64,000 bases of DNA from NCBI GenBank assembly GCA_963669155.1, contig OZ022587.1, positions 3,934,621 to 3,998,620 of the forward strand, written 5' to 3'. The position numbers and the translations under genes were made by a program. Below, piece by piece: positions 41,412-64,000 of this stretch (position 1 is its first letter; each line of letters begins with the position of its first letter). Origin of the DNA: Arbacia lixula. Its lineage: Eukaryota > Echinodermata > Echinoidea > Arbacioida > Arbaciidae. Below the pieces are notes generated by a model. That model made no database searches, was not told the DNA's origin, and worked only from the letters and a program-made list of their open reading frames with translations.

Positions 41412-41468
<57 letters not shown>

Positions 41469-44689: not shown

Positions 44690-45148
44690 CTTAGTGTAGT
44701 CTCTGGGCTATTATCGCTGGCACTGGAAATGGTACTGGGACTAGTATCTGAAGATGAACACCTAGTGTGTAACTAGTTCTCGTTTCCTTTCTTGATATCA
44801 CAAAGTCGCTTCCTTTGACAATAAATTGTCTGCGCTCTCCACAGAAAACCGATGTTATCTCATGGCGTTTGTATGGAATTTGAGAAGCCAACTTCTTTTT
44901 TAAATCATAAAAAACGTCTGAAGGGCAGGTAATTATATATTGACTGATAATGAAGTATGTCTGTTACAAAGCTATGGAATTCAGTACTTCTACAATGTAA
45001 CAGCTGTGGAACCACCAATGCAGTCTTATATAAATAGTCACAATCTGCAAGAAGCCTTTGCATTAGCTTCTCTCGCTCTAGCTGAAATTAGCGTTGGTCG
45101 AGATACACCAGGTTTACTTTCCAATCTCTCCAAAGCAAACAGACGTGG
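44690..45148 (-). other. 5' flank of the Ig gene
   Basis: Upstream of the Ig start codon. A TATATAA-like run on the minus strand near 44933-44940 would give a 5' UTR of about 200 nt; this is only a guess. No CpG-rich promoter is evident. Confidence 0.25.
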
Positions 45149-45215
45149 CGGCAAGCAATAGTCCCCTCTCCCCAAAATTCCAGTATATCGAGGTCTCCTT
45201 CCACTTGCCTGTGAA
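45149..45215 (+). repeat. 67-bp duplicated segment, copy 1
   Basis: CGGCAAGCAATAGTCCCCTC and TCCCCAAAATTCCAGTATAT recur at 46643-46705 in the same orientation, with CTCTCCTTC..CT following. The 45094-45585 open frame across it has no recognisable family. Confidence 0.7.
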
Positions 45216-45625
45216 GTTTTTACTTCGGTGTGGCTCCCGACCTTTTCATCACACACATGGGCGCTGCGTTTCTACCCGCCCGTGTCTGAACAATCCTTGG
45301 ATAAACGCTGGCCACTGCGCAATCACTTACATACACTACGTTGCGGTCCCTGACTACCTGGCTAGCGGGCTGGCTGGCTTGCTGGATGTACTCTACCATC
45401 ATCAGTCTACACTTGAATGCTTCCTCTCTGTCTCGCTCTTTCGCTTCCTCTCCGTTTCCTTCCTTGTACGTTTTTTCTTGATTATGGCTGTATTCTCAAC
45501 CACACACATGTTTTGGAATGGTGCAGTTCAATTATTGGATCGAAAGTTCTGCTACATTATCTACTTTCATTTTCTGTGGCTTTAACAAAATGTTATTAGT
45601 TTGATCTGCAAAAGCGACATCCTGT

Positions 45626-46040
45626 CTTTAAATAGAAATTTCCCCCTGAAATTGTTTTGGTCTCAATACAAGAAGACACATGAAAGAAACATACCATATG
45701 TTGTATACAATTTTTTTGGAAAATGTCAATTTTCTCAAAAGGATATTATACCATTTTACCTGTGCATTTGATATACCATTAGACACATGGTTTTACACAC
45801 ATATCGCTTGGAAAGAATGCATTCCTTCAACAAAAAACATAAAACGGTCAATTTATGGAAAAAAGTAGTACACAACATATGGGAGAGCACCTCACACGTG
45901 ACGTCACAAAATCAAAACTAGAAAATCTAATAACTTTGTTTTCCTTTGACCGAATTTTGTCAAACCTACACTGATATATTTCTCTCATGTGTCTCCTTTT
46001 ATTGAAACCAAAATAATTTAATGGTGAACTATCCCTTTAA
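45626..46040. repeat. AGGGATAGTTCACCCTGAA MITE, copy 3
   Basis: The left end is degraded (TTCCCCCTGAAATTGTTTTG); the right end is intact (ATGGTGAACTATCCCTTTAA). Central GTGACGTCACAAAATCAAAA and GGGAGAGCACCTCACACGTG match the other copies. Confidence 0.85.
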
Positions 46041-46642
46041 AGGGAAGACATAGCTAAGGGTCAAGACTGCTGGACCCGGAATCATGGCAGACTTGAACTA
46101 CTCAGACCACGGGTTCCATTCTTCTCTTCTTTTCAGAATCATGTTGAAATAATGTTCTCAAAATGATAATTTAAAAGTCATTGAAATCAAAACAAGACTA
46201 GTGCCCCTGACTTTGGCAACTATATGCAGGAAGTTTCTACCATGATACCGGATCTATCCCTAACCCATATAGCGTCATATGACTCTCTGATGACTACTCA
46301 ATTACAATGATTACTCTAGTTTTCCTCATTCCTATCCTCTTGGTATAAGTTTCCCTCATGATTCTGGATGTATCCTGTAGCGTTTTCTATAAATATGTGT
46401 AAACCCATGACATGAGTTCCTTATCATGTCACATGACTCCGTGATGCGGGGAAAAAAAGTCATGCAAAATTTTCGGGGATTACTTTTTTAGCACATTGGG
46501 CATTTTACTTCAATTTTACATTGTGTCTATATGAAAATTTGGGGGGCTCTTTTAACATTTTCCAGGGCTCTTGTAAGCATTTTGGGGGCAAAATCGCCCC
46601 GAGCCCCCATGGATTTTCCCTGCTTTGATGACATATCAATGA

Positions 46643-46705
46643 CGGCAAGCAATAGTCCCCTCTCCCCAAAATTCCAGTATATCGAGCTCTCCTTCTACTC
46701 GTCTG
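46643..46705 (+). repeat. 67-bp duplicated segment, copy 2
   Basis: Direct repeat of 45149-45215, about 1.5 kb downstream and 300 bp before the UGT exon pseudogene. Confidence 0.7.
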
Positions 46706-46996
46706 TGAAAGTTTTCATCTTTCCTTCCTTCTTGGTAAACTTTCTCCCATAATTATAGATCTACATGTAACCCTTCACTTTACCTGCCAGGTACAAGTGT
46801 GCATATGTGAATGGGAAGGGAAGGTGTGTGTGTGTGGGGGGGGGGGGGGACGTAACTTGTCAATTGCTTCTGACAGGGTAGTTGCCCGTGTCGATAAGAA
46901 CGACAAAAATCTACAGAAGTCTTTGTGATTAATCTTTTGGGTATGAAGTTTAATGTACAGAAAGTAGGGGGGGGGGGGGGGTTCGCTTGTAAGCTG

Positions 46997-47272
46997 CTTC
47001 AAGAGGAACGCGGAGAGGGCGTCAGCCATTATGCAAGACAAATTGTCAGCCCGCTCGACACGGCGGTCTTCTGGATCGAGCACGTGCTCAAGTTTGGCGG
47101 GGATCACCTCCGGCTGCGAGGCGCCGACATGGGCTTCGTAGAGCTTTACTCCCTAGACGTTGTGGCCTTCCTAGGCGTCGTCCTTCTGCTTTGGGCCTAC
47201 CTGACCTACTCGGTGGTCGGTGTGTGCTGCAGATGTTGTAGACGAGGACCCTCGAAAGCAAAGAAAGACTAA
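46997..47272 (+). pseudogene. orphan UGT last exon, frameshifted
   Basis: About 94% identical by hand count to the last exon of the UGT gene at 58584-58860, in the same orientation, with the same end (SKAKKD, stop at 47270-47272). One base is missing near 47040 (20 instead of 21 bases between the ATG and the CCGCTCGAC block), so the conserved entry frame soon meets TAG. The acceptor CAG is replaced by CTG after a long G-run. No other UGT exon was found in 44-47 kb. It is the remnant of an upstream tandem UGT copy; a sequencing error cannot explain both the frameshift and the lost acceptor and exons. Confidence 0.85.
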
Positions 47273-47990
47273 CATAACATAAAGCCTCTTGAAAGGATAA
47301 AGGGATACAAACAGGTTAGCCCAGCTGCATTCATCGTCAGTATCCAGGGTGTTGATTTTCTCGCATGCCGCCCTCTTTACGTGCTATGTCATTGTTCACT
47401 GGAAATAAATTGTTACCAGTATGAGCATTTGTGTACCAGCTTGATACTTCTTTCATTTTCCAATCCTCATCAATATTTTGGAGCTGAATTGTGTTTCTTA
47501 CCATTCATAATAAAGTGATGCAGTTCAATATATTGCATGTACCTACTGTACTACTACATGACTCTGTTGGAAAAGAGTTGGTAAAAACTCATCCTGTCAA
47601 AATATGTTGAAATAAAATGAATAAAAAAAAAACAATTGGCACACAAATTTAGCAAAATCGGGCAACAACGTAAAACCTACACATTTTAAAAAGTTGTACA
47701 ATTAGAAGACCAGGTAGGGATCACTTAATTAGTCAGGCTCTCATGATATAAAATTCAATATTTTCCAGAAGAATTTCACAGCAATTCTCTGATTGTAGGA
47801 GAGTATTTACATACCTGCATATTTATATTAAAAGAAATTGAATGTATCCTGTTTTGGTAAGAGATAATAAGAGGTGCTTTACTGATCCAATGCAATGCAT
47901 TATGACTACGCCTACGACATCTCTGAATGTTTTGCGAATTTAAATCGTGAAAATGCCACCATTGTTTAAAAAAATGTACGCATAAAACAT

Positions 47991-48536
47991 ACAAATGAAC
48001 AAGAACACGAGCATGACTAGTGAGGTTAAGAAAATATCCTGAAAATCCATCGTGTAGAAATGATGATATTGGCATAACCGTATCCCAGTCCTACTCCCCT
48101 AATAATTAATTTTTTATTCGATTTGCTTTGACTGAATTTTAATTGATTTTTTTCTGCTTGATTTCAATTCAATTTAATTTTTTTTATCAATTCAACGAAC
48201 AAAATAAACAGTTTTCATGACTAATGAATACTTAGGTCATGTATGTGCCACGAACACATCCTTGTACACCGGTAAATGATAAGAAATCTTATCTTTTATT
48301 ATATTGATCAGCTACTTTTATATCCATTGATTATTGCAGTATATATAGTTTTATAATATTATATTGCAGATTCAGATTCAATGTTGTTGCACCAGGTAAA
48401 ATATCCAAATGAAGATGCGTCCAAGTCCCGACATGCAAGCATCAAGATACAAATTGTTTGTATCATGATTTATGTCAAGTTCCTTTCTCCCTCTGCTCAG
48501 GTTGACCAGCCAAATTTACCCCCTTTGTCCTTCTGA
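47991..48536. other. spacer without recognised feature
   Basis: AT-rich, T-run-containing sequence within the left duplication arm. No clear counterpart was found in the right arm. Confidence 0.35.
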
Positions 48537-48954
48537 CATAATTGCTATTGAAGTCTACGCATTCATTGAAATTCAATGTTACCTTTTGAGCCGACACGTA
48601 ATTCTTGAACTTAAGCTCCACTGATGAAAGGTGTTAAAACCTTTTATTGGGCGGAGTGCCTGCTAATAATGTCAGTAATATAAGTGAACACTTTGCTTGC
48701 ATGAGAGGGCGATGTTGATCTTGATGATTGCTGGTTTGGAGCATTTTGCTAGGGTTATAGGCAGTGGCGTAGACAGGTTCGTACACCTGGGGGGATGACT
48801 GGGCTGCCAACGCTCTAGAAGGAACGAAGCGACCGAGCCGGGGGAGGGGGGTGCCCCCCCCCCCCCCACGGTGAAAGCTTTTGCGATTTTGAACTTGAAA
48901 TCGTGCAATCTGAAGCATACTTAATGAGGTAAAATAAGACACACAAGCGTGCAC

Positions 48955-48993
48955 GCACATACACACATACTCTCTCTCTCTCTCTCTCACACA

Positions 48994-49036
<43 letters not shown>
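48955..49036. repeat. (CA)n and (CT)n microsatellite in the hAT element
   Basis: CT run then CA run, about 80 bp. Confidence 0.95.
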
Positions 49037-49039
<3 letters not shown>

Positions 49040-49059
49040 TTGTACTACGCCTGAAATGG

Positions 49060-49458
49060 ACAGTCATATTTTCGACGAGATCTACACACCGTGGCATAGG
49101 AGTACGGAATGGACTGACACATATTTTGCAGGGACGATTCGTATTGGATCCAGGGGTAGTTTGGGTACCAGTTGGCTTGAAACAGAATTTTCTGCGGTCT
49201 ATTTTCTAGTACGGGAATGGAAGAAGTTGGGGGTGATTGGGGCTAACCCAGTCGTTAAAACCGGCATCAGTTTCATCATCAGCTTTCGCCTCAGATGCTC
49301 CATCACCCTCAACGGCACTTTCTTCTGGTAAGAACAGGCCTTTCTCCGACATTATCCGACTTTGATGTAGACGGCTGTTCGCCATCATGTTCTTCTTTAT
49401 CATTATGCTTGGAAAAAGAAGTGATCTTTGATGTTTTCAACTTCTTATTATGAGCCAT
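49060..49458 (-). pseudogene. transposase N-terminal fragment, TTF-type zinc-finger region
   Basis: From an ATG at 49458 the minus strand reads MAHNKKLKTSKITSFSKHND, like the Lys-rich start of hAT/ZMYM-like transposases. After at least one frame break comes FQANWYPNYPWIQYESSLQN with a Cys nearby, matching the conserved F-Q-x-x-W...P-W-[LI]-x-Y entry to a TTF-type zinc finger. Frame breaks and missing downstream parts make it dead. It agrees with the hAT-like ends around it. Confidence 0.55.
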
Positions 49459-49587
49459 CCTAGAATCCGAAAACCAATTCACGTTGTGAATTAGGTAAGG
49501 GACATACGCACATATATTTTCCCCTTAAAAAGTTAAGGAAGACAAGGCCTCCTGCTTAGCGGACTCACCACGTGTTTTTGTTTTCTA

Positions 49588-50320
49588 AACACAACAACAA
49601 CAAAAATAACCCCCTAAGCAAAATAGAATAACTTCTTATCGAAGCGGTTTGGGGCAAAATAATTTGCAGGATTGTTCCTTAACTTATTGACTGTCCTCTG
49701 TGTGAAAATGACATTAATCCATTTAGTCATGCAGTAGTGGGCAAATTTTAAAGGCAAAAAATGTAGATTTTTCAAAAGTCACAAGGGTAATTATTTATGC
49801 CGTTTTAACAATACATTTTGGCATTTCTTTATTTTCTGCGATTTGTAAAGTGTATTCACTCAACCATGACACGGAAATGACTTCCAATGTATACATAACA
49901 GGTCATGTTAAATCTTTGTCAAAATATCCAGTTGTATTTTTTAAAGAAAAAATACAGGGATTTTAAAAGTTTCAAATACCAGAGGGAGGAGTATTTTTTA
50001 AATGGGTTAAATGGGTTAAATGTCGGGATAGGTGTAGGTGCATCGAGAGATGGATGATAAACAATGAAAGGACATAAGTTATGCACCAGAAATGGAATTC
50101 ATCAAAAATTCATATGACCGAAACCCCAAATTACCCTTGTGACTTTTGAAAAGTTACATTTTTGCCTCTTAAATTTGCCCAATCACGCATGACTTATTGG
50201 ATGTTTGGATTAATGTGATTTTCACACAGAAGTTAGGCAATAAGGTGAAAATCAATTCTGCCAAATTATTTTACCCAAAACCTCTTTGATAAAAAGTTAT
50301 GCTATTTTGGTTAGTGAAGA
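49588..50320. repeat. foldback MITE (GCAAAATRACATAACTTTTTAT family), copy 3
   Basis: The left arm AGCAAAATAGAATAACTTC..TATCGAAG and the right arm TTTGATAAAAAGTTATGCTA are inverted. Shares TTCAAAAGTCACAAGGGTAA with copies 1 and 2. Nested in the hAT element. Confidence 0.85.
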
Positions 50321-50958
50321 CAAACCACAAGATAACCACAAAATACTTGTAAGATTTTCTCTTTTTTACCGCCTGAATTGGCTTTCACCGTGTGAATGCG
50401 GCTAATACCAATGAACATGATTACACTGATGATGAGGATTGATATCATCATCTTGATAATTATCATTATTAATATTATAATTGTTATTATTAGTTATCCT
50501 ATCATTATCATCATCATTATGACTAATTAAGTAAGCAAATATCATTCCTCCAAACCGGGGGGGGGGGGGGGGGGGGGGAAGGGGGATGATTGTACATGCC
50601 ACCCCCACCTTGTGAAGTGGGGGGATGCATCCCCCTCATTCCCCCGTTGTCTACGCCCCTGGTTAAAGGTCATAATCGTAATCTACAATGCTGTATACAA
50701 TCAACGTGAGTCAGCAGAATATCACATATTCAATCTGGGCAAACACTTGATCGAGATTTTCTGATGTAATATCCTTGAATGTTGCTTGAGTAGATATTTA
50801 CGGCGTATACCGGTTGGCGCAAGGGACACAATGCGAGGCGGGGTGGGGGCAATACTCTCACCCCTCCTTACTCCCTTATACTGGTTTAGCTGTTTAGCTC
50901 GGAATGTAACAACAGCTAATACACACGTATCACATCGCTAATGCAGTTTGGTTAATAT

Positions 50959-51682
50959 CAAGGATGTTTAAGCACATAGTGCCAGCAGCCATTTAATTAA
51001 TGCAGATTCATTGTACTCTGCTTTAGTCATAAAAGAACGCTTTACAATGATTTTCTCTTTGATCTCCCACGTGCGAAGCCGCCGATTTTGTTGATTTTTG
51101 CCTGAATTTGACAGACAAACAAAATCGGATGCGCAGGAGAATTTGGGGAAATATCCTCACCTCCATATACTTGCGCAGTTGTGACATGTGACATGCAATA
51201 CCTACGATGCATCTATAAAGATTCAATCGAGGAATATTGTTACAATATGGCCAAAAGGCTCTAAAAGTGATATTAAGTTGCAGTACAAAAGTCTCAATTT
51301 CTCAATGTTCTGCATCATATTCCAGTAAAAACAAATGGCATGAAACGTTACTTTCAGATATTTTCCGTTCGGACAAGTAACATGAAAAACGTGCCCAGCT
51401 GCGCCCAAGGTAGTATTTTCATCTCAAAAAGTATCACATTTTGCATTCGATTGTATTTGTCAACTATGTAGCAAGCACTTAGTGACAAAATTAAAAGTTC
51501 AGCAGCGAAAGCTGAAATGTAAGCATGTATAGGAATGTGTATGACCTATTATAAAATCCAGGTGAACCTGACGCAATCACGAATACTTCAAATTGTTGAG
51601 AGTAGCTGCTAGTCATGAATATTAAGTGGCGGAATCGAACCTTGTTTAAAGGGATGGATATCCATGTACTTAAACATCCTTG
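50959..51682. mobile_element. 724-bp TIR element (CAAGGATGTTTAAG ends)
   Basis: Ends CAAGGATGTTTAAGCACAT and the complement of ATGTACTTAAACATCCTTG are inverted, 18 of 19. The flanking 8-mers GTTAATAT and GTTATATA are possible diverged duplications. The paralogous site near 61258 reads straight through (TTTGGTTATACATGTG). The interior is non-coding by eye. Confidence 0.75.
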
Positions 51683-51901
51683 GTTATATAGGCCTATGTA
51701 GTAACCTTCTAACATGCGATTAAAGTATGCCTACTACTACGATCAGACCACGGGAAGATTACATTTACCTCACATGTGTCACATTAATTGGAATATACTT
51801 CGGTTTTAAGTGAGCGCATGACAGAGGCAAAGAGAATGATTCCCCTAGCTGTACCCACCTCAATGTTCACTGCCATTATTTGCAATTGACTGAGTGGGTG
51901 T

Positions 51902-52623
51902 TAGACCAGGGATGTGTTATGGAAGGATAGGAAGCAACTTTCTTTCTTTGAACCCATGTGCCAAGCCGCTGAAAAGTTATGGTGTTCTCAACAGGTGCTG
52001 TTCAGGTGTTTGAACAATTATGAACATGATTGTGTGGCAACGGTTTCTCAGAGAGAACAAAAGAAATGTACAGTTTTATTTCGCTTGTCCCGTTCTGTTA
52101 ATGACATTAATACTTCCATGAGCACAACAGGTATCAGCAAACACAAGTAAAATATCTCTGCTTCACGCAAACACACACAAACGCCGTTAATGATAACACA
52201 CAGCTTAATATATCATTTTGAGGGTGGTTGAATCTCCCAAATGCACAAGTTGTCGGAAAGTGAAGAAATTGGTCAATTTTGTAAATAATAGAAATAGCTT
52301 ATATGTCCGATTTTTAATGATTCCTCAATACTTTCCGAAACAAAAGCAGAGTATTAGGATCTGTTATTATATGCCGTTAACTTCCTTATAGTTTGCAAAC
52401 GAATTTGTCAAAAACAAAACGTCTACAGACAAATGGGAAATTAAAGAAATTTCTTTTCAAGTTGACATCAGCTAAATGTCGGCTCGGCACATGGAACATC
52501 AAAGCATTGTCATGATTATGGAATTCTTTTGACATCCATGATCACGCTTTAGAACCCATACAGATGTTTGAATGTATTATGCTCGAGTTTCTACTCCTTC
52601 CTATAACACTTCGCTGGTTAAAC
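51902..52623. mobile_element. 722-bp TTAA-type MITE, copy 1
   Basis: Ends near ACCAGGGATGTGTTATGGAA and the complement of TTCCTATAACACTTCGCTGG. Nearly collinear, in inverted orientation, with 56439-57161. The paralogous site in the right arm (near 61040) lacks it. Confidence 0.85.
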
Positions 52624-52964
52624 GATGGTAACATGTTTTCGATTGCAACATTGGTCTCGATCACGCTTCTAAGCCTGAGATCGTACGTGCTGGATCAACC
52701 TCTCCTTACTAATAGAATCCCCGGACCCCGTGCTATAACGGGCCCTGCTACTCGACCACAGATACTAACCTCTCCTTTCGCCTTTCAAGGTCGGTCAAAG
52801 TCCAACTGAGTGACATTGAAATTTACATATTAATTTTCGCGCTGTGTACATAATCTTTTTCCGAGCGGGCGGAGACCCTAATGTTTGAATAGCGCGGTAA
52901 GATTAAGTTGGCATACGGCCAACTGTATTGTTGAATTTTCACTGGACTATGTGGACGGTTTCGT

Positions 52965-52970
52965 TATATA
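52965..52970 (+). promoter_or_regulatory. possible TATA box of the UGT gene
   Basis: TTATATACAG about 105 bp before the first ATG. It lies just beyond the part of the upstream region that is duplicated at 60780-61042. Weak evidence. Confidence 0.25.
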
Positions 52971-53073
52971 CAGTAGCTAGAGATTAACGTGTCCTCGTAG
53001 TTAGCGTGGATAATTATCAATTTTATTTTCAAAGCAAGCGGCCACAGAGAAGATCTTACGTTTTGTGAGCGCG

Positions 53074-54084
53074 ATGGGTTGTCCTATGCAATTGACCGGG
53101 AAGAGACGAGGAGGCCGTCGTCTCATGTCAGTCATAGCAGCGATGAAGCTGGTGCTGGGATCGCTCTTGTTAGTAATGGTGGCTGGCCCTAGTGGCAGCT
53201 CTGGAGCTAAGATTCTGCTTCCAGCGACGAGCTTGATGAGTATGCCGAGCCACTACATGGGTCTAACAGCAATCACGAAGGCCATGGTTGAACGCGGGCA
53301 CGATGTCACCCTCCTAATCATCGACAAGCGAGAGGTTAAGGGTTTTAGGCCGGGGTCGTATACGGCCAACATCACCTATCCGAACTCAAAATCTGACGCG
53401 GAGGTCGCCGACTTTTACGAGCTGAAGGCCGCAGGGACTGCTTTCCTTGCAAACGCTTCCATCTTGACAGTTCTACAGGACCCCCGGCCTGCGCTTGCCT
53501 ATGAGATGATGTCATTCGGCTGCTGGGAGCTCTTCGGACATGAAGACACCCTGCAGCGGTTGAAAGGTGAGAACTTCGACCTGATCCTGACGTTCCCCGT
53601 AATGGACTTCTGCGATGCCCTGATCGCTGCTTACCTCGATGTACCCTACGTCGTTTTACTGGGCACAAGGAGATCCCCCGCATATCACGAAGGCAAGTTG
53701 GGCATCCCGTCACCGAACTCCTACGTACCCTTCAGCTTTTTCACACCAGACTTCTCTGACCAAATGAGCTTCTTGGAGCGCATCCAGAACGCAATTTTCC
53801 GTTACGTCGTCCAAGATCTCATGGAATACGTGTTAATTTCCCGTCCGCTCAGTCAGATACAGCGATTACATAACATCCGCCCAGACCTTACCATAGCTCA
53901 GATGTTCCAGCGTGCCGAACTGTTCCTTTGCCATAATACATGGGCCTTGGAGTATCCGAGACCTATCGCTCCTAACTGGATACCAATTCCTGGATACACC
54001 ATTAGCAAACCAAAGCCTCTTCCGGACGATATACGTCGGTTTATCGAAAGTTCTGGAGAGCACGGCATCATAGTTTTCAGTTTG
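53074..54084 (+). CDS. UGT exon 1: signal peptide and acceptor-substrate domain
   Basis: 1011 nt (337 codons), phase-0 end at TTTG|GTGAGT. Covers the N-terminal, acceptor-binding half and the start of the C-terminal domain up to VFSL. GC-rich, codon-biased sequence contrasts with the AT-rich flanks. Possible in-frame starts are at 53074, 53086, 53125 and 53143. The minus-strand frame at 53372-53713 is its shadow. Confidence 0.93.
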
Positions 54085-57000
54085 GTGAGTAAAAAGGTTT
54101 ATGTCTTTTATCTTCATATTTTACGACTGCACTGTGTATTGTCCACATACACGTTTTTTTAAACAAAGTAATGTGGCTAAACTGGGTCAGTCGGTGAATT
54201 GATTGATGGAAGACCCCTAGCTCTTCCTATTCGGTGGAATTTTAGTTGCTGATGCTTAAAGCGAAACAAAGAATCGGATCCAAACCTCCGAACATTCTGA
54301 TATGTTTGAATTGTGGATGTTTACATGCTCCTTTCTTGCATGCATTCTTAAATTATCCAAATATAAATCTGGAAAAATGGCGCCACAGATAAGGTCACGT
54401 AATCACGACGACGAAGTTAAACAAGTTTGTTTGGTCATTGTTTTCCCCCTTGGCCCTCGTTCCTATACACCAATGGTACAGTTGTCTGCTCTTAATTGGT
54501 GTAATTGGTTTGGATAGGATCATGACGTTAGCGGTTGCTAGCTTGAAAGGTTCCTTTTGCACAATAGTTAAATAACATAACATAAATGTTTAGCCTGAAA
54601 CCACTTGATTTATTCAACCATCTTCCTCATTAACGCATTTTTCATTATTACCTAATGGTTGCTAGATAGGAATGGTATACGTACATTGTTTAGCCTAAAA
54701 TTACCTGATTTATTGAACCTCCTTTTTCATTAACGTCTTTTTCATTGTGTTCCAGGGATCGGGGGCTGTGTCACTTTCCACCAAGGCCAAAACGGACGCC
54801 TTCTCTCTAGTCTTCAGCGAACTGCCACAAAAGGTCATCTGGAGATACATTGGCCCCACCCCCAGTTTCCTTGGCAACAATACTATGCTTACTGATTGGC
54901 TTCCTCAGAATGACATCATGGGTAAGGACTCATACAAACAGCCGCAAAACCATCACCGGATTGTCAAACAAAACTCTTTGTTTTTCTCCAACTTTTATCA
55001 GTGGTGTAATTATATAGTCAGTGATACGTTGCCATCCAACAAGATACTAAATTTTAATACTATACGTGGGAGTCGATGTTTAACATTTTGTAGAGTGACG
55101 GAAACCCAAAGTCACTCGCGGGAGCAATGTGTAGTATACGTTTGCGACTGTTATAATTGCTAATTCTCATTGCAACGAAAATAGATATTTAGCGCCGATT
55201 GGTTAAAGGTGATACTTATAGGAAATAGAATGAAATAAATATAGTTCATTTTATAACTGAATGAGTTATTAAAGCAATTTACACAGCTAACATGCCATGA
55301 AAGTGTTCAGTTTTGTGTTTAATGAAAGTCAAATTTCACTTAATTGACTCTCTTCCTGACCTACGAAATCGCCTAAGGGAAAGTGGCGTTGTGTGTACGT
55401 CACAGCCGGGATATGTTTTACAATGACCATTGTGTATCACACCTGTTAATCCACTAGCAACTGCCATCACAGTTTCATTAACAATGCATGATGCATCTTG
55501 CGGAAAAGAAGCTGCGGATTGGCATGTGTGATGCACAATAACGCCTCCCTTCTCTTACGTCAGACCTAAAAGGCCGTTTCGGATGACAGTAGGGCAAATT
55601 TGTCCCCGAGAATACGGTGATTGTTTCACCCTAATTTCGTTTTTTGGAAAGTGATATATTGTTTGAATGTCATCCGAGCTCATTGTATGGCTTATAAGCT
55701 TTCTGTAGATGAATATCTTCATATTTTTGGATTTTCTTTGAATATCACCTTTAAATTTCTTTATAAGGTGAGGGCGCCATTTCCATCGGAGAGCTCCAAT
55801 GTAGGCTTAATATAACGAATCAGTGTTTCCATTAGGATGCGGCTTCTTAGGGCGTTAAAGGGATAGTTCACCATGAAAAATAAGTTTATTTCAATAAAAG
55901 CAGACGCATGAAAGTAACATATTAGTGAAGGTGTGATGAAAATCTGTCAAAGGATAAGAAAGTGAGGATTTTTTTAAATTTGATGTTGTAACGTCATGTG
56001 CTAAGTGCTCTTCCATGATTATGTTGTGTACAGTTGTTTTTTTAACTGTGCATTATCTAAAAAAAATATGCAACCTTTTACCTGCGCATTTGATACATCA
56101 TCAGAAACACTTTTTACACCCATACTTGCACGAAAAATAATCCGTCCGTTGTCACAAATAGAATAATAGCAATTTAATGTTATTATACTGTACACAACAT
56201 ATGGGAGAGCACCTCGCACGTGACGTCACAATGTTGACATTTCAAAAGATCATGACTTTCTTTATCCTTTGACGGAGTTTCGTCAAAACTTCCCTTATAT
56301 GTTTCTGTCATGTTTCTGCTTTTATTGAGACCAACTTAATTTCAGGGTGAACTACCCCTTTAAAGGCGCACAGACAGCACGCACAGTATGCGACTCGCTC
56401 AGTCGCCCGGGATAGATCAGGCCCCCAAAATGCAAAGTTTAAGCAGGGATGTGTTAGGAAGGAGAAGCCACTCGAGCATAATATATTCAAACATCTGTAT
56501 GGATACTAAAGCGTGCTAATGAATGTAAAAAGCATTCCACAATCACTACAATGCTTTGATGTCCCATGCGCGCCACCGACATTTAGCTGCTGTCAACTTG
56601 GAAAGCAATATCTTTAATTCACTGTTTTGTCTCTGGAAGCTATGTTTCTTACCACATTTTTGTGCAATTTTCAAGAAAGTTACGGGCAACACCACTAAAG
56701 ATCCTGTACTCAGTTTTCTTCTAAATAATTGTTGAATGATGCACAAACGGAGGTATAAGATAATATTCTTACACAATTAACAAATTTCTTCAATTTCCGC
56801 AGATTTCCGCAAATGTGGGATTCAATCATTATCAAAATTATATCTTAAGCTGTTTATTCTCATTAATAGAGTTTGCGTGCGACTGAGATATTTCAGTAGA
56901 AAAAACTATTTATTTTTGTTCGCTGATATCTCTTTTCCTCACATAAGTATTGATGCAATCCAACAGAACTGGACAAGCGAAATAAGACTCTACATTTCTT

Positions 57001-58860
57001 TTGTTCTATCTAAAGAAACCGTTGCTACGCAATCCTGTTCGTTATTATTAAAACACCTGAAAAGCACATGCTGAGAAGACTTTTTTTCTTCGGCGGTGCC
57101 ACGCATGGGTTCAAAGAAAGAAAGTTGTTTCATATCCTTCCATAACACATCCCTGGTTTAAGGTTATCATCAAAAGCCAAGAACCATTGAGCGCTACTCA
57201 AGGTGTACCGATCCAATCACTTTATGCCAGACTTTTATTCATGTAATTATCAACGTGAGAATTTTTTTTACCGTCGACAATATTGTCGTACCAAGTCACT
57301 ATACAGATGGACAATTCCAATTGTTCGATAAAGCAACATTCAAGGATATTACATCAGGAAATTGCAATTGTCAAGTGTCAAATTGCCCAGACTCGATATC
57401 TGATTTGAAATTATGTTGGCTTATCATCGTAGATTAGGAGGATGACCTATACCCCAGCTAAATACTCCAGACCTAGAAACCAAAGTTCACGCTATGTTCC
57501 TGTTGGAAATCCGAGACTGGTGATAGAGAACAACAGATAAATTTAGATATACAGAGGGTGGCTCTACCCAAGACCTTTAGAAGTTATAATATCTGAATGT
57601 GGGCAATTCCATGAAATTTTGAACAAATTTCAAAATTTCAAATGCCTTTATATTAGGCAACAGAGTTTAGTGTAAGTTGATAATTATTGTGTAATATGTG
57701 TTTCGGCAGTGTTTTCATTTTGTTTTTAAATGTTTAGCCCTCAAATCTATGTCGCTCTTATGAAATTGAACTACACATAGGCCTACGTATGGGCCTCAGA
57801 TTTTTTTTTTTTTTATATTAGCTCAATTGCAGTTCCACTGGTCTTTCAAAGGCTTAATTACGAATTGAAGCAATACAGCATAGGAAAATGTTATTTCTTG
57901 ACTTACAACAAGAATAAGATTGGATGGACCAAAGGTAAGATATTTTTTTTTACGAATGGACAAAGTGTAACGCAAAGGAAACTAAGGTTTTGTTTTCGCT
58001 CTCACAGATAAAACTAAAGATATTCCTTCTAAAGAGATCTGAAATCTACACGTGTGACATGATACGTGTGAATTTCAAGCTTCTCTACTGAATTCCTCTT
58101 TCCCGATCCGTTTGTTGGTTCAGCTCATCCAAAGGCTCGTCTACTGATCTACCATGGCGGGAGCGCCGGGGTTCACGAAGCCATTAACTACGGGGTTCCG
58201 ATGCTCCTTATTCCTTTGGCCGGTGACCAGGGTACTAATGGACATCTGGTCGCAGTGAAAGGCATGGGTCTTGTGCTTGACGAATCTTCCATAGACGAAG
58301 ACATCATCAGGAGTTCCATTCACGATATACTAAACGATGACAGGTACGTGGCTTATGTCGAAATAATTTCTTTGGGTTTCTTTGGGTAATTGGCTTTAGA
58401 AAGGGGTGTGCGTGGCTGCATATTTGATTGTACCAGTAACTTGCTGGTTGGTTAGAATGTAATCATCCTTTGAAAGAGTATATGACACAGAATTATGCTG
58501 TTTAAAAGGCTTACAAGTGTTATCATTTGACATACATACTACATGTATTACTATTGCTATTGCTACTTTTTGATTCCATGCAGCTTCAAGAGGAACGCGG
58601 AGAAGGCGTCAGCCATCATGCGAGACCAGATCGCCAGCCCGCTCGACACGGCGGTCTTCTGGATCGAGCACGTGCTCAAGTTTGGCGGGGATCACCTCCG
58701 GCTGCGAGGAGCCGACATGGGCTTCGTAGAGCTTCACTCCCTAGACGTTGTGGCCTTCCTAGCCGTCGTCCTCCTGCTTTGGGCCTACCTGACCTACTTG
58801 GTGGTCGGCGCGTGCTGCAGATGTTGTAGACGAGGACCCTCGAAACCAAAGAAGGACTAA
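53074..58860 (+). CDS. UDP-glucuronosyltransferase (UGT), 4 exons, 557 aa
   Basis: Exons 53074-54084, 54756-54921, 58124-58343 and 58584-58860 join in frame (1674 nt), all GT-AG. UGTs transfer a sugar from a UDP-sugar to lipophilic substrates in the ER lumen, for detoxification or hormone and pigment clearance. Visible features: a hydrophobic signal (MKLVLGSLLLVMVA); MPSHYMGLTAI with His60 at the position of the catalytic His in human UGT2B7; ERGHDVTLL; GIIVFSLGSGAVS; WRYIGPTPS; TDWLPQNDIMAHP; the UGT signature YHGGSAGVHEAINYG..P..DQ; PLDTAVFWIEHVL; a C-terminal helix; a CCRCCRR cluster; and KPKKD at the end, a KxKxx ER-retrieval signal. Start: the ATG at 53074 gives 557 aa; the ATG at 53143 (MKLVLG) gives 534 aa, nearer the family norm, and starts at the signal peptide. 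The exon 1 end at VFSL|G matches the vertebrate UGT exon 1/2 boundary. Subfamily and substrate are not determinable. Confidence 0.95.
54756..54921 (+). CDS. UGT exon 2
   Basis: 166 nt; acceptor TTCCAG, donor ATGG|GTAAGG, phase 1 out. Encodes GSGAVSLSTKAKTDAFSLVF through LPQKVIWRYIGPTPS to DWLPQNDIM. The conserved W-x-P-Q-N-D is intact. Confidence 0.95.
55855..56363. repeat. AGGGATAGTTCACCCTGAA MITE, copy 4
   Basis: Both ends intact: TTAAAGGGATAGTTCACC at the left, GTGAACTACCCCTTTAA at the right, TTAA at each terminus. 509 bp, almost the same length as the 508-bp copy at 4572. Confidence 0.9.
56439..57161. mobile_element. 723-bp TTAA-type MITE, copy 2
   Basis: Ends TTAAGCAGGGATGTGTTAGG and the complement of CCATAACACATCCCTGGTTTAA are inverted, with TTAA at both termini, as piggyBac-type elements leave. 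Inverted match to 51902-52623. Interior non-coding. Confidence 0.85.
57335..57480. repeat. diverged third copy of UGT spacer sequence
   Basis: AGCAACATTCAAGGATATTACATCAG and TAAATACTCCAGACCTAGAA resemble 61438-61535. The Cys-containing open frame 57255-57437 lies over it and is not a gene. Confidence 0.55.
58124..58343 (+). CDS. UGT exon 3: nucleotide-sugar signature
   Basis: 220 nt; acceptor GGTTCAG, donor ACAG|GTACGT, phase 1 in and 2 out. Encodes HPKARLLIYHGGSAGVHEAI, then GVPMLLIPLAGDQGTN, the PROSITE-type UGT signature with the D-Q pair that contacts the UDP-sugar. TH is replaced by YH before GG, a mild departure from the usual T-H-G/A-G. Confidence 0.95.
58584..58860 (+). CDS. UGT exon 4: C-terminus, membrane helix and ER tail
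   Basis: 277 nt; acceptor CATGCAG. Encodes SFKRNAEKASAIMRDQ, PLDTAVFWIEHVLKFGGDHL, HSLDVVAFLAVVLLLWAYLT (helix start), CCRCCRRG and KPKKD-stop. Reads through without breaks, in contrast to the copy at 46997-47272. Confidence 0.95.
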
Positions 58861-58920
58861 CACTCCAATCCCCCTTTTTTGACGGAGGGGGGTGCAGCAA
58901 CAGCTGAAAAATTTTCATAA

Positions 58921-58926
58921 AATAAA
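58921..58926 (+). promoter_or_regulatory. poly(A) signal of the UGT gene
   Basis: AATAAA 61 bp after the stop codon, in ATAAAATAAAGCC. It gives a short 3' UTR. Confidence 0.7.
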
Positions 58927-59689
58927 GCCAAAGGCCTAGTCAAGTTTCTGGCAACATATTGTTTGATAGTAAAATGATCAAAAAAGGTTGAGCCGAAAAA
59001 TTACTTTGCCGCTTTGTTGTAATTATAATAAATAAAAGCATCAGTTACTGGGAAGACAGCAAGTCAGTACCTTAAAGTACAATAAATCTTAATTGAAGGA
59101 GTCTAATGAAAACATTCATGCTTTTCTTAAAATGTTTCATGTTCGTTTTTCTGCTTTAGCTTTTACTGAAAAAAAAAGTCAGATTCATCAACAAAATCTT
59201 TAATCCATCACAGTAGATACAATTCGAGAAATCGTAATAGACATATTTTATATTAATATTTATATGCGAATCATGACACAAGTAAGTTGTAGAATGCAGT
59301 GTGTGCGAAGTACTCTTGGTTGAAACCGATGTTAACAAATGTTGTACGTGCTGTGGTTTACCAACAGCCCACATAGAATAGAGATGTTCCTCACTGGTGC
59401 TTGTACCTTCTTCGTCAGCCCTGTGCACATTGTATTATCGTCATATTTCATGCTGTTTTGCAAAAATGACGTTGATTTAAATTGAATTAGAAATTCCTTC
59501 GTTAATGCGAATATGTGCAATACACAACTGGAGCTTTAAACCTTTTGGGGTAATGTCAAATCAGATTTATCAACACGGTTATCTCCTTGAATTTCTCGTG
59601 GACTTTCATTATCTGTGTCGTGTTGACTTTATGAGATAACTAATAGTTCTCCCCAATAGTTCACTCCAATATATGTTTGCAAGATAAGC
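58927..59689. other. UGT 3' flank
   Basis: AT-rich, no gene. Additional AATAAA hexamers occur (for example near 59030 and 59082). Confidence 0.4.
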
Positions 59690-60060
59690 ATGAACAAAAA
59701 GAATTGGCACACGCTTGAGTGAAATGAGGTAAGAACTAATGAAGCTGTAAATTGTTTTAGATTTGTGAAATTGAGATACACGGCAGTTGTTCAGATGTTC
59801 TGGTTTTAGCATGGGTCTCTATTTTTTGTGTGCGAAAATGTTTAGAAATTTCAATATATTCTAAAACGTTTTTTACAGCCGTTTTCTGTGAATATGAAAG
59901 CATTGAACTCTTACATGCAATTAACTTGAATATTTGTACCACATTTGAGTAACGGAGAATGAAAGGTGTTTTACTGGTTCGATGTAATGCATACTGACCA
60001 CGCCTACGACATGTGTTGCGCATTTAAATCAAAATAACCACCATCGTTTCCCGAAAAGAA
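59690..60060 (+). repeat. direct partial copy of the post-UGT spacer block
   Basis: GAATTGGCACAC, GTGTTTTACTGG..CGATG.AATGCAT and ACCACGCCTACGACAT match 47630-47975 in the same orientation and 63330-63620 inverted. It places the functional last exon and this block in the same order as the orphan exon and its block at 47.0-48.0 kb. Confidence 0.7.
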
Positions 60061-60074
60061 AAGTTAAATATGTG

Positions 60075-60076
60075 CG

Positions 60077-60109
<33 letters not shown>

Positions 60110-60110
60110 T
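60075..60110. repeat. (GT)n microsatellite
   Basis: A short GT run after TGCGCGTGTATG. Confidence 0.9.
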
Positions 60111-60410
60111 AAGCCTACACTTGTGCAGGACAAGATGTTTTTTTTTGTATAAACTGATTTAATTTTTGTTTTACCCTGGAATGATTTGTATATCACTGTG
60201 CATGTAGTTTTTTTTAATTGACTGATAATAACTGTATTCAATTTCCATTGCTATTTATACCTCAATTGAAGGCTATAATTTATTCAACAAATATTAAATA
60301 CAAAATAAAGATTACTAAAAAAAAGTTTGAAAAATGTGTGGGTTGTTTCTTCTTATGTGTTGTCACAACCGGCCGTGCACCTCTCTACGTGTAGTCTGCG
60401 TCGGGTTTTG

Positions 60411-60445
60411 CAGAAAATCCTTGCGTCAGACGCAAGGATTTTCTG
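60411..60445. repeat. perfect 17-bp stem hairpin, 1-nt loop
   Basis: CAGAAAATCCTTGCGTC, A, then its exact complement. It lies in a CG-rich stretch (60.36-60.55 kb) next to CCGTGCACCTCTCTACGTG, which resembles CCATGCACCTCTCTGCGTG at 62082. Confidence 0.85.
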
Positions 60446-61336
60446 CGCGTTTTTTTCAGGCACGCACTGGCACGTACGCAGGAGGACGCGCGCAAGAATC
60501 GCAGAAGTTATGGCACGCAGGATGCGGACTCCCACCTACAAAAACACACACGGCCGCCTGTGTCCAAAGAGAGGTAGTATATGTAAATAAGAATTACTCG
60601 TTTAACGGGCTGTTTATTACAAATATGAGTAAACGATGTGCAATGTTAGTGGATGAATCTCCCGTCTAGACATGTTGAATTAAATAAATGATTATTTATC
60701 TCGTATACGTAATCGTTGATTCGTTTACTCCACATTCAGATTCATTTATTCATTCATAAAACGAAACTGTTCTGTGTCCGTTCAACAATGCAGTTGGCCG
60801 CATACTCTTACCACGCTAAAACAAGCTCTCCGCCTGCTCGGTAAAAATTATGAAAAAAAAAATGTCAGCAGCGCGAAAATAAATAGAATTTGCAATGACA
60901 CTGAGTTCGACTTTGACCTACCTTGAAAGGCGGGAGGAGAGGTTAGTTCATGTGGTTGATTAGTATAGGGTCCATTATTAACATGGTACATACGTGTCTG
61001 GTGATCACTCATTAACAGGTTGATCCAGCACGATCTCAGGCCTCAGAGTTCGGCCAGTTGCAAATAATGGCAGTATATAAACGTGAAGAGGATGCGGGGG
61101 AATTACTCTAATTACCTCTGTTATGCGCTCACTTAGAATCGAAGTATATTCAAATTAATGTGACACATGCAAGATAAATGCAATCTTCCCATGGTCTTTT
61201 ATCAAAGTAGTATAGGTATACTTTAATCGCATGTTGAAAGGTTAGCACATGTATAACCAAACTGCATTAGCGATATGATACGTATGTGTTGGCTGTTGTT
61301 ACATTCCGAGCTAAACCACTATAAGGGAGGAAAGCC

Positions 61337-61371
61337 GGGGGGGGGGGGGGGGGTGGGGGTGGGGGGGGGGG
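61337..61371. repeat. poly-G run
   Basis: About 33 G with two T interruptions, in the right arm opposite a shorter G/C-rich stretch at about 50835. Length is unreliable in assemblies. Confidence 0.8.
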
Positions 61372-62069
61372 TGAGAGTGTCGCCCCCTCCCCCATTGTGT
61401 CCCTTGCGCCAACCGGTATACGCCGTAAATATCTACTCAAGCAACGTTCAAGGATATCACATCAGAAAATCTCGATAAGTGTTTGTCCAGACTGAATAGT
61501 GATATAGCCTAGCAAAATACTCCAAGCCTGAAATCGCCACGATCAACATTGCCCTCCCATGCAAGTAATCTGCTCACTTATATCATCAGCCGGCACTCCG
61601 CCCGATAAAAGGTCTAAACACCCTCCATTAGTGGACCTAAGGAGAAGAGTTCCTTTTGTGACAGCCACCCAAAGTCAATAAAAGAAATATGCAACTTAGA
61701 ATAATGCATTCAGCAATATAACACTATATTATACAGATAGTTTGAGGGGTCTATATACATTTTTAAAGAAAATAAAAATATACCTATATGATAATAATAT
61801 AGAGATCATTCGAGGGTTATAGATCATGTAGATAAAATAAACCGGACCCATGTGATTATGGTACGCGCGTCCCTACGCGCGACACTGGTGCAACCCCGGT
61901 GTCCTAGGGTTAGTGTGGGGTCGTACGTTGGGGATACATCGGGTGGCTGTCGAAAAAAAAATCTCTCCGTTCATGAGTGATCATTTTCGCTTTCGTCTCA
62001 TTTCATGCCTGCTCAAAAGTAAACACTGAAATTCAATGAAAGCGTAGACCTCAATAGCAATGAAATGTC

Positions 62070-63299
62070 GTGGTCGTAATCGGCCATGCACCTCTCTGCG
62101 TGCGGTTTACTGTGTGGTTTTAATAGCTCATATTCTGGTCCAAAAATTCCCCCCCACCCCCATACAGCGCAGAACCACATTTCTTTTAGATTTTTAAGTA
62201 GTGCACATTTTATAAAAAATGGATCTTTTAGCCGAAATTTTGAGCTTGGACAAAACAATTTCAAAATTTACCAATACTCCCCCATCGAAATGTACAGGTC
62301 TGACAATGGGAGATAAACATAATATCGATTCTTACTTGAAAATGAACTAGCCCCACAAGACTATGACCACCCCTTTGAAGGAATTCAATGTTTCTCTTTA
62401 ACAACAACAATGAATAAAACAACACTTTTTTCATTGTGATACATGATTAGATTAATTCTTTCTTTTAGCATAACAAATGGAAATTGGATACCATGGAGGA
62501 AACACAAAAGAACAACTTTTCGCCTTCGAATTATAGGTGAGCAACAACGGTGAACAGCAACGGTCATTCCACCCCCCCCCCCCTCTCTCCAACACGCCTG
62601 TCCTCCCAGTTTTCCCGGCTTCGCCACAGATTATTTCATTTTCGGACTAAGAACCTTACTTCGTTTTCGGATTAACGAACCTTCGAAAAAACGAACCTTA
62701 TTTCGTTTACGGATTGACGACTCTTATTTTGTTTTCTGACTAACGAACATCGAGGTATCGGCAATTTACGTGTTTTGGAATTACGAACCTTCGGAATAAC
62801 GAACCTTGGGAATATCGAACTGTAACCCAATTTCGCAGGTCATCCTGAGCGTATAGGTAGAAAGGAACTTCCCATCGGCTAAGTCATGATCTATAAGGTT
62901 CGTATCTTGAAGCTTCCTTGTCCGGGCTTGGAGGCACCTTTATTCGGATATCCTGTCTTGGTGCGACATCATTGTAGACTGCAATCTTGTTCGCATGTTG
63001 ATATACATTATAAAAGCCTAAAATAAAAAGCAACTGGAGTGATACACATCTTTGTTTCTCTCTCTTTCTATCTTTTACTCTATCCTCTATAAAATATATT
63101 GTTATTGAAATAAACGTTTTTCATACCATCAAGATTCGGTTTACCATGTTTGATTTTCTTTCATTTGGTATGTTGTGTTATGTAATGTACTTCAGACTTT
63201 CCTTTCATCATGCTTGTGCCTATAATGAATAGCCCCGTGTGTGTGTATCAACGTTTTATCAACGCTTTATCATATCTGCCATACAAAGTATGTGTTATT
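62070..63299. other. right-arm-specific DNA with an AACGAACCTT tandem array
   Basis: Contains a degenerate tandem of TTCGGAATAACGAACC (about 62640-62825) and a C-run near 62571. No gene supported. It has no clear counterpart in the left arm. Confidence 0.7.
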
Positions 63300-64000
63300 T
63301 TCGGAAACAATGGTGGTATCATCACGATTTGAGTTCGCAATGCATACCGTGATCTTGTAGGCGTGGTCATAATGCATTGCATTGGATCAGTAAAGCATAG
63401 GATGCATCTAAGTCCTTCATAGATATGGAGGTATTTAAATACTTTCGTATAATCAGAGAATTGTTGTAAAATTGTTCTGGAAAGATATTGAAACTTATAT
63501 CATAAGAGCCAAGCTAAACAAGAGATCCTTACCTGGTTTTTCCGATTGTACAACTTGTAAAAATCTGTAGGTTTTAAGGTGTTGCCTCATTTTGCTAAAT
63601 TTGTGTGCCAGTTGTTTTTTTGTATTCATATCATTGCAACATATTTCCCAACATATTTCATTGCAAACTATTTCCCAACAGAGTCCTGTAGAAGTTCAAA
63701 AGGTACACGCAATTTGTTGAAACTACATCACTTCATTATAAAAAAACACACAATCCAGCTCCAAACAATTGATGAGAATAAGAAAAAAAATGAAATAAAT
63801 TTGGTACACAAAATGTTTATTTACTGCCAACAATTTGTTTCCAGTGAAAAATGACATAGCACGTTAGAGGGCGGCATGCGAGAAAAACATTTCTACAAGT
63901 CTCGGTCGAAAATATTTCAGTAAAGTATGAGCTATTCCTTAAAATCAACCCCCGGCTACTGACGATGAAAGCAGCTGTGATAACCTGTTTGTATCCTTTT

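Follow-up and report, generated by a model that had tools for sequence, protein, structure and literature searches.

Inverted arms around a UDP-glycosyltransferase gene of Arbacia lixula: the possible footprint of a small inversion

Results

Two inverted arms flank UGT1

In the window, the 64,000-nucleotide stretch of Arbacia lixula DNA analysed here, the spacer in front of a UDP-glycosyltransferase (UGT) gene returns behind it in reverse, raising the question of how one spacer came to stand on both sides of one gene. The sequence-only reading described five blocks in the order A-B-C-D-E before the gene and E'-D'-C'-B'-A', inverted, after it. Both places and order are borne out: the region 46,993–53,068, before UGT1, recurs at 60,754–64,364, inverted and in the same order. 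BLAST of 46,993–53,072 against 60,750–64,364 returned nine matches on the minus strand, their order strictly inverse, and none on the plus strand; one of the nine is an orphan copy of exon 4 (ox) itself. Together the blocks on the left measure about 1.5 kb rather than the 1.7 kb first given. The genes and the elements of the two arms are listed below.

53,074–58,860, plus strand: UGT1 (U1), exons 53,074–54,084, 54,756–54,921, 58,124–58,343 and 58,584–58,860; 557 aa; GT-AG introns
64,360–64,084, minus strand: exon 4 of U2 (an intact gene encoding 557 aa); exons 3 to 1 reach up to 73,590, all four beyond the window
46,967–46,981, plus strand: 15 consecutive G, immediately beyond the left end of the duplicated segment
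46,993–47,274, plus strand: ox, a dead U2 exon 4 copy marking the left end of the duplicated segment
47,273–48,516, plus strand: block A, left copy, gapped, flanking ox on its 3' side; inverted matches to parts of 64,026–62,829
48,541–48,602, plus strand: block B, left copy; inverted match 62,061–62,000
48,614–48,753, plus strand: block C, left copy; inverted match 61,638–61,508
48,756–50,718, plus strand: 1,963-bp insert in the left arm only, with a CA repeat and an inverted-end repeat (49,610–50,312); right arm flush
50,719–50,954, plus strand: block D, left copy; similarity to its partner is unusually high
50,955–51,692, plus strand: 738-bp insert in the left arm only; right arm flush
51,696–51,888, plus strand: second part of the block D region, left copy; inverted match 61,250–61,055
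51,901–52,623, plus strand: dispersed repeat inside a 771-bp insert that only the left arm carries
52,665–52,965, plus strand: block E, UGT1 promoter/5' flank; 52,735–52,935 matches 60,978–60,781 inverted, more weakly to about 60,754
59,667–60,064, plus strand: A'', direct and older relative of block A, within the 3' flank of U1 itself
60,065–60,753, no strand: junction from U1's 3' flank to the inverted arm; no exon found
60,754–61,050, minus strand: block E', UGT promoter lacking a gene body; right end of the duplicated segment
61,055–61,505, minus strand: blocks D', right copy, contiguous, with a G-rich run (61,337–61,371) inside
61,508–61,638, minus strand: block C', right copy
62,000–62,061, minus strand: block B', right copy
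62,064–62,828, no strand: repeat-bearing insert in the right arm only; absent on the left save for two tiny aligned pieces
62,829–64,000, minus strand: block A', right copy, U2's 3' flank, running on to 64,083

The repeated unit consists of U2 exon 4, the spacer and the UGT1 promoter, and the right arm is U2's 3' spacer. First-order Markov resampling of the right arm, repeated 100 times, produced no match. Minus-strand matches were found in 4 of 12 control stretches (3,615 bp each, drawn from the first 43 kb); all except one lay inside the CA repeat or the 49.6–50.3 kb repeat, and the remaining one (51,940–52,049) lies inside the repeat at 51,901–52,623. These repeats occur elsewhere: the one at 49,610–50,312 recurs near 18.9, 25.5 and 26.2–26.7 kb, the one at 51,901–52,623 at 56,437–57,161 (minus strand) and near a third gene, U3, and that of the right-arm insert (62,064–62,828) at 65.8–66.8 kb. 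Block A (47,353–47,975) has two full-length places in the whole genome, itself and the inverted one (77% identical), together with eight short partial matches, one of them the direct copy at 59.9–60.05 kb and seven elsewhere. Block D has three places, every one in this locus. With blocks A and D confined at full length to this locus, we reject dispersed repeats as the origin of the arms.

With exon 4 and block D left aside, 293 of 1,555 sites differ between the arms (18.8% substitutions), and the longest exact runs they share are 99, 72 and 53 bp. Each side carries private inserts, of 1,963, 738 and 771 bp on the left and about 765 bp on the right, besides smaller ones. Given these substitutions and inserts, the arms are old, and hence not an assembly copy. 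Inverted repeats are a known source of misassembly, and our case is built on the assembly rather than on reads; against this stand the divergence of the arms, the private inserts on both sides and the 0 N in the window, which make an assembly artefact or collapsed haplotypes a negligible prospect.

An intact neighbour beyond the window

Residues 59–547 of U1 match positions 11–492 of the Pfam UDPGT profile (E 2e-105), a full-length domain. UGT1 had been called the only intact UGT, which holds inside the window but not beyond it, where U2 starts, last exon first, 84 bp past the end. The exon structures of U1 and U2 match, their introns are GT-AG and both reading frames are complete. In a genome search the exon 1 regions of U2 and of U3, 7.1 Mb from the pair, match UDPGT, and both proteins align with U1 over its whole length. 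By their Pfam domain the pair are predicted UDP-glycosyltransferases. The best solved relatives are the C-terminal domains of human UGT2B (UGT2B15, E 1.6e-40). A vertebrate-UGT1-like array is present on another contig of the same genome.

Truncated gene pieces mark the edges of the duplicate

The orphan last exon noticed at 47.0 kb is real, and its reading is corrected here to a dead copy of U2 exon 4. It differs from U2 at 10 of 276 sites and from U1 at 15 of 276; five grouping sites (plus one three-state site) place it with U2 and one with U1. Its private changes are eight substitutions and one deletion, a 1-bp loss relative to U1, U2 and U3, and its acceptor has changed from CAG to CTG. Intron 3, whether of U1 or of U2, has no homologous sequence upstream of ox; homology stops at the exon edge.

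At the opposite edge, E' shares 55 sites with the UGT1 promoter and 51 with that of U2, an ambiguous count; its BLAST match to UGT1 (E 2.9e-34) is much stronger than that to U2 (E 4.9e-8). The right arm had been described as a UGT 5' flank lacking a gene body, and tblastn with UGT1's four exons agrees, giving no match at E<=1 in 58,870–60,780. An exon-1-only tblastn beside E' returned chance-level matches (best E 0.93). Left of ox (40,000–46,980) the best tblastn match to UGT1's exons had E 0.12, and blastn with the twelve exons of U1, U2 and U3 found none at E<=0.01 in either interval. Within these intervals, where E 0.12 was the best value in the exon searches of both, we reject a decayed gene body, be it next to E' or on the left side of ox.

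The two ends of the copied segment, U2 exon 4 and UGT1's promoter, are each continuous with their own gene in one copy only. As in a staggered-break footprint, inverted duplicates are present at both ends of the inverted segment, and the truncated pieces ox and E' lie at the duplicate edges while complete U2 and U1 are kept at the other copy. A history of tandem duplication, inversion and deletion had been put forward for this array. A'' and the inverted arms support the first two; deletion is not needed, because ox and E' bound a single duplicated segment and the searches next to them showed no remnant of a gene body.

The gene duplication is older than the inverted arms

The direct copy of block A reported at 59.7 kb is real, though much older than the inverted pair: over 288 common columns A'' is 62–63% identical to A and A', which are 83% identical to each other. 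Site support follows the same pattern, with 79 sites grouping A with A' and 20 and 17 for the alternatives. This flanking copy points to an older duplication. K is 0.22 for the spacer and 0.51–0.53 for A'', and Ks of U1–U2 exon 1 is 0.38 (0.13 to 0.63 by part). These ages are coherent and place the gene duplication before the inversion.

Patches of high identity

Block D differs between the arms at 14 of 220 sites, compared with 293 of 1,555 in the rest of the spacer (Fisher p 8.4e-7). A run at codons 150–190 of U1–U2 was equalled in 0 of 20,000 permutations at all sites (p 0.022 at silent sites); the same test gave 0.0135 (silent) and 0.32 (all) for U1–U3 and 0.995 (silent) and 0.009 (all) for U2–U3, the p values of the six tests being uncorrected. 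Low p values in two of the four tests on U3 pairs are unexpected under local exchange. These patches suggest past gene conversion, with constraint as an alternative.

Exon 4 also changes slowly. At 4-fold sites the three gene pairs differ at 2/45, 3/42 and 5/42 positions in exon 4 and at 26/138, 40/120 and 40/121 in exon 1, and the low silent divergence of exon 4 extends to the comparison with U3, 7.1 Mb away. Either conversion or constraint may account for it. The genome holds four near-full-length copies of exon 4, all on this contig, and four short partial matches on other contigs. The proposal that the arms drive recombination and copy-number change is borne out only in part: conversion-like patches are present, but set against them are the spacer differences (293/1,555), exact runs of at most 99 bp and just four near-full-length exon 4 copies.

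RNA structure was rejected as a cause of the slow exon 4: four pieces from this exon, one of them minus-strand, gave z scores between +0.65 and +1.21. A known RNA was rejected too, as no Rfam family reached its gathering threshold in 46,500–64,000. A 134-bp identical tract in exon 1 scored z -1.61, and 11 of 200 shuffles were as good. The last exons of U1 and U2 form 96.6% identical inverted repeats of 297 bp, 5.2 kb apart. Read-through RNA from this convergent pair might fold on itself and be antisense to the neighbour, and the resulting dsRNA could regulate both genes, with slow silent change in exon 4 and a fresh dead exon as consequences; we consider this highly improbable.

Discussion

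A proposed inversion with staggered breaks

On balance, we favour the view that a single small inversion within a tandem of two UGT genes left the arms as its footprint. In the ancestor, U2 and UGT1 would have stood head to tail with a single spacer between them. UGT1 and its 3' flank would then have been inverted relative to U2, with the intergenic break staggered: U2 would have been cut where its exon 4 begins, UGT1 within its 5' flank. What lay between these cuts would have ended up at both ends in opposite orientation, its right copy today measuring 3.6 kb with inserts. U2 would have retained its last exon and UGT1 its promoter, leaving both intact and now tail to tail. Two pieces without use would remain, a copy of exon 4 upstream of the UGT1 spacer and, at the opposite end, a promoter. 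Later gene conversion may have kept exon 4 and block D similar.

Several points weigh against an inversion. The ancestral U2–UGT1 order is putative, and the sides at 46.99 and 60.75 kb, which would have been adjacent before the inversion, show no similarity to each other. One edge is an exon boundary, where random breakage would rarely fall. In addition, ox is too similar to U2: even with drift in ox alone since the inversion, about 30 differences are expected and 10 of 276 are seen (P 2.3e-5), so that an inversion needs conversion or a later death of the exon. The latter is what a possible, though less probable, history offers, in which a larger unit (a whole U2-like gene, the spacer and the next gene's promoter) was duplicated in inverted form and the left gene later lost exons 1–3 while its last exon decayed. 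The mild decay of ox, with eight private substitutions and one deletion, fits a recent death, and constraint until lately, as the slow silent sites of exon 4 in three gene pairs would imply, could explain ox without conversion. This history costs one event more, its deletion must stop at the edge of exon 4, and the search for exons 1–3 in 40,000–46,980 reached a best E of 0.12.

Kilobase staggers are long, and template-switching repair could give the same pattern. Template switching or foldback repair (BIR/MMBIR-like) would have reverse-copied exon 4, spacer and promoter at one break, with no staggered cuts. Its product is identical, it has been proposed as an alternative origin of inverted duplications at inversion ends (PMC7584159), and G runs adjoin the segment or sit inside it (46,967–46,981; 61,337–61,371). 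We recognised neither a templated insert nor microhomology that would be diagnostic, although about 19% divergence may have erased such traces. The present data do not separate this route from staggered breaks; we hold it to be unlikely.

Relation to known systems

Inverted gene-bearing palindromes are known from Y chromosomes, where gene conversion keeps the arms alike. Our locus resembles them in having inverted arms with high-identity patches. It differs in that identity is about 81% over most of the spacer, short of the near-identity along most of the arms expected of a palindrome maintained by conversion (293/1,555 sites differ); conversion, if any, is patchy, and the palindrome is not maintained.

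A closer parallel comes from inversions in Drosophila, where truncated gene copies at staggered breaks are described (PMC5080602, PMC7584159). As in O4, O8 and others of Drosophila subobscura, inverted duplicates flank the inverted part, and a duplicate may carry a truncated gene copy that decays while the whole one is kept (PMC5080602), likewise ox and U2 here. At our locus a single gene and its flank make up the inverted part, which now spans about 7.7 kb, compared with 9.9 Mb for the Drosophila O7 inversion (PMC7584159). Also in contrast to Drosophila, the duplicate combines one gene's last exon with the other's promoter and is known from the inverted state alone. Vertebrate UGT2-type clusters likewise contain complete UGT genes side by side, each with a full set of exons, as well as pseudogene pieces; the pair described here is convergent, has four exons per gene rather than the six of vertebrate Ugt2b (PMC2819257), and is distant kin only. 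Most simply, the mechanism is of a known kind, well preserved, and not a new system.

The locus would offer a clean, datable example of an inversion among UGT genes. A detoxification gene pair could flip its orientation without gene loss, since the duplicated ends give the last exon to one gene and the promoter to the other. A pseudo-exon or orphan promoter in a gene cluster need not be a dead gene; it can instead be the scar of an inversion.

The UGT pair and its relatives

Self-comparison of the window confirmed the blocks A–E before the plus-strand gene UGT1 and their inverted copies A'–E' after it. The sequence-only reading had called UGT1 the only intact UGT. This holds inside the window; once 40 kb was added on the right, a second gene, U2, was found. 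The main features, in window coordinates continued past the right end, are:

46,993–47,274, orphan last exon
46,993 to about 53,068, left copy of the UGT spacer
53,074–58,860, plus strand, UGT1
59,667–60,064, A'', a direct relative of block A
60,754–61,050, E', orphan UGT promoter
64,364 to about 60,754, inverted, right copy of the spacer
64,360–64,084, minus strand, last exon of U2
73,590–72,580, minus strand, first exon of U2

UGT1 and U2 share an identical four-exon layout with GT-AG introns and 557 codons each. A third close relative is U3, with 555 codons, on the same contig (OZ022587.1) at a distance of 7.1 Mb from the pair. Searching the genome (607 Mb in 590 contigs) with the exon 1 protein gave 86 matches, in which UGT1, U2 and U3 are set apart at 100, 84 and 72% identity; among the other 83, the top-scoring match has 43% identity, and identity nowhere exceeds 49%, a value reached over 59 residues. 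UDPGT matches number at least 88 genome-wide. Some 30 of them, single open frames of ~490–590 aa spanning most of the domain, are apparently intronless UGTs, and multi-exon ones also occur.

Two further features were observed nearby. Of nine ORFs that were scanned, five contain immunoglobulin domains; these five lie on the minus strand (30,648–40,148), with a tandem repeat at about 31.7–33.3 kb. To the right, a tandem segmental duplication occupies 75,267–104,000, where the comparison ended, and is for the most part much younger than the UGT arms. Segments recurring further right are:

75,267–78,766, 88.8% identity
80,013–83,155, 97.3% identity
83,153–85,301, 97.4% identity

Age of the inverted copies

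The two spacer copies align in one chain of 2,055 columns at 84.5% identity, which contains some very short, low-weight pieces and nine individually significant matches. With exon 4 and block D left out, 293 of 1,555 aligned spacer sites differ. Private inserts measure 1,963, 738 and 771 bp in the left copy (smaller ones, 277 and 103 bp) and about 765 bp in the right (smaller ones, about 350 and 141 bp); several hold repeats present elsewhere. The differences and the inserts on each side argue against a copy made in assembly and point to arms of considerable age. In the second intron of UGT1, at 56,437–57,404 (minus strand), a fragment of block D (57,331–57,404) and the repeat that is also present at 51,901–52,623 are found inverted, with their order kept.

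A'' lies in UGT1's own 3' flank and is 62–63% identical to both A and A'. Site patterns group A with A' in 79 cases, against 20 and 17 for the alternatives. The distance of A'' to A/A' (K 0.51–0.53) is within the range of exon 1 silent divergence between UGT1 and U2 (0.38 overall, 0.13 to 0.63 by part), while A and A' are separated by K 0.19 in the stretch common to all three and the arms by K 0.22 over the spacer. These values argue that the gene duplication predates the inverted duplication.

Recombination between the arms

Inverted arms of this kind had been proposed as possible drivers of recombination and copy-number change. Exon 1 of UGT1 and U2 contains an identical run of 134 bp. At codons 150–190, the observed run of agreeing sites was reached in 0 of 20,000 permutations of all sites and in 2.2% (nominal) with silent sites only. 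Because two of four tests on pairs with U3 were low as well (0.0135 and 0.009, nominal), the silent-site result alone is weak. We consider gene conversion likely in exon 1 of the two genes.

Conversion may also have acted in exon 4 and block D. Block D differs less between the arms (14 of 220 sites) than the spacer does elsewhere (293 of 1,555; nominal p 8.4e-7). Exon 4 shows slow silent change in all three gene pairs, the two with U3 among them (four-fold sites, Fisher p 0.018, 0.0005 and 0.009, nominal). Between UGT1 (58,584–58,860) and U3 (11,092,094–11,092,370 of the contig) exon 4 has nearly no silent differences: 3 of 42 four-fold sites differ vs 40 of 120 in exon 1, despite the 7.1 Mb separation. 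Folding analysis did not point to an RNA structure in exon 4. In vertebrate UGT clusters, the available text of a 2007 study (PMC1885805) describes gene conversion as not predominant.

Origin of the orphan pieces

The orphan last exon is nearest to exon 4 of U2 (10 of 276 sites different), and their 3' flanks match; it lacks one base and its acceptor AG is gone. E' matches UGT promoters. Searches next to the two orphans recovered no remnant of a gene body (best E 0.12, left of the exon), which bears out the earlier description of an orphan exon at 47.0 kb and of a right copy with a UGT 5' flank but no gene body. Given these matches and the lack of remnants, the simplest reading takes the orphans as opposite ends of a single copied segment that runs from U2 exon 4 through the spacer to the UGT1 promoter.

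We lean towards a single inversion of UGT1 with a staggered break as the explanation of the arms. From a proposed ancestral order U2–spacer–UGT1–flank, UGT1 and its flank would have been inverted, and staggering of the break between the genes would give the present order in one event with both genes kept. The dead exon is fresher than expected (10 differences from U2 exon 4 vs about 30), for which this inversion would also call in gene conversion. An inverted duplication followed by deletion must instead add a late death of the exon, to which the slow silent change of exon 4 lends help, but it takes more than one event, and we consider this main rival less likely. The array had been read as rearranged by tandem duplication, inversion and deletion: the older A'' and the younger, inverted arms agree with the first two, and the staggered inversion would dispense with deletion, as no gene is lost.

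The mechanism proposed here is already known. Drosophila inversions with comparable duplicated and truncated gene pieces are described in the available text of PMC5080602 and PMC7584159. In the titles and abstracts of the matches listed, with subscription journals mostly outside the search, no UGT cluster was described with a footprint of this sort.

A variable-first-exon array on another contig

On contig C17 (4,296,001–4,332,000, 36 kb examined), seven UGT first exons in tandem are followed by a single downstream exon set:

near 4,303,066, small exon, then e2, e3 and e4, common exons downstream of the first exons

Each first exon ends in CAG or AAG followed by GTA, a candidate donor. At least one contains a stop (TAA), and another is one base short towards its end when compared with the adjacent first exons. 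With splicing as predicted from the sequence, this is the layout of vertebrate UGT1, in which several first exons stand ahead of one common set. The 2007 study, in the text available, calls such organisation vertebrate-specific (PMC1885805). The C17 array may be worth more attention than the inverted UGT spacer.
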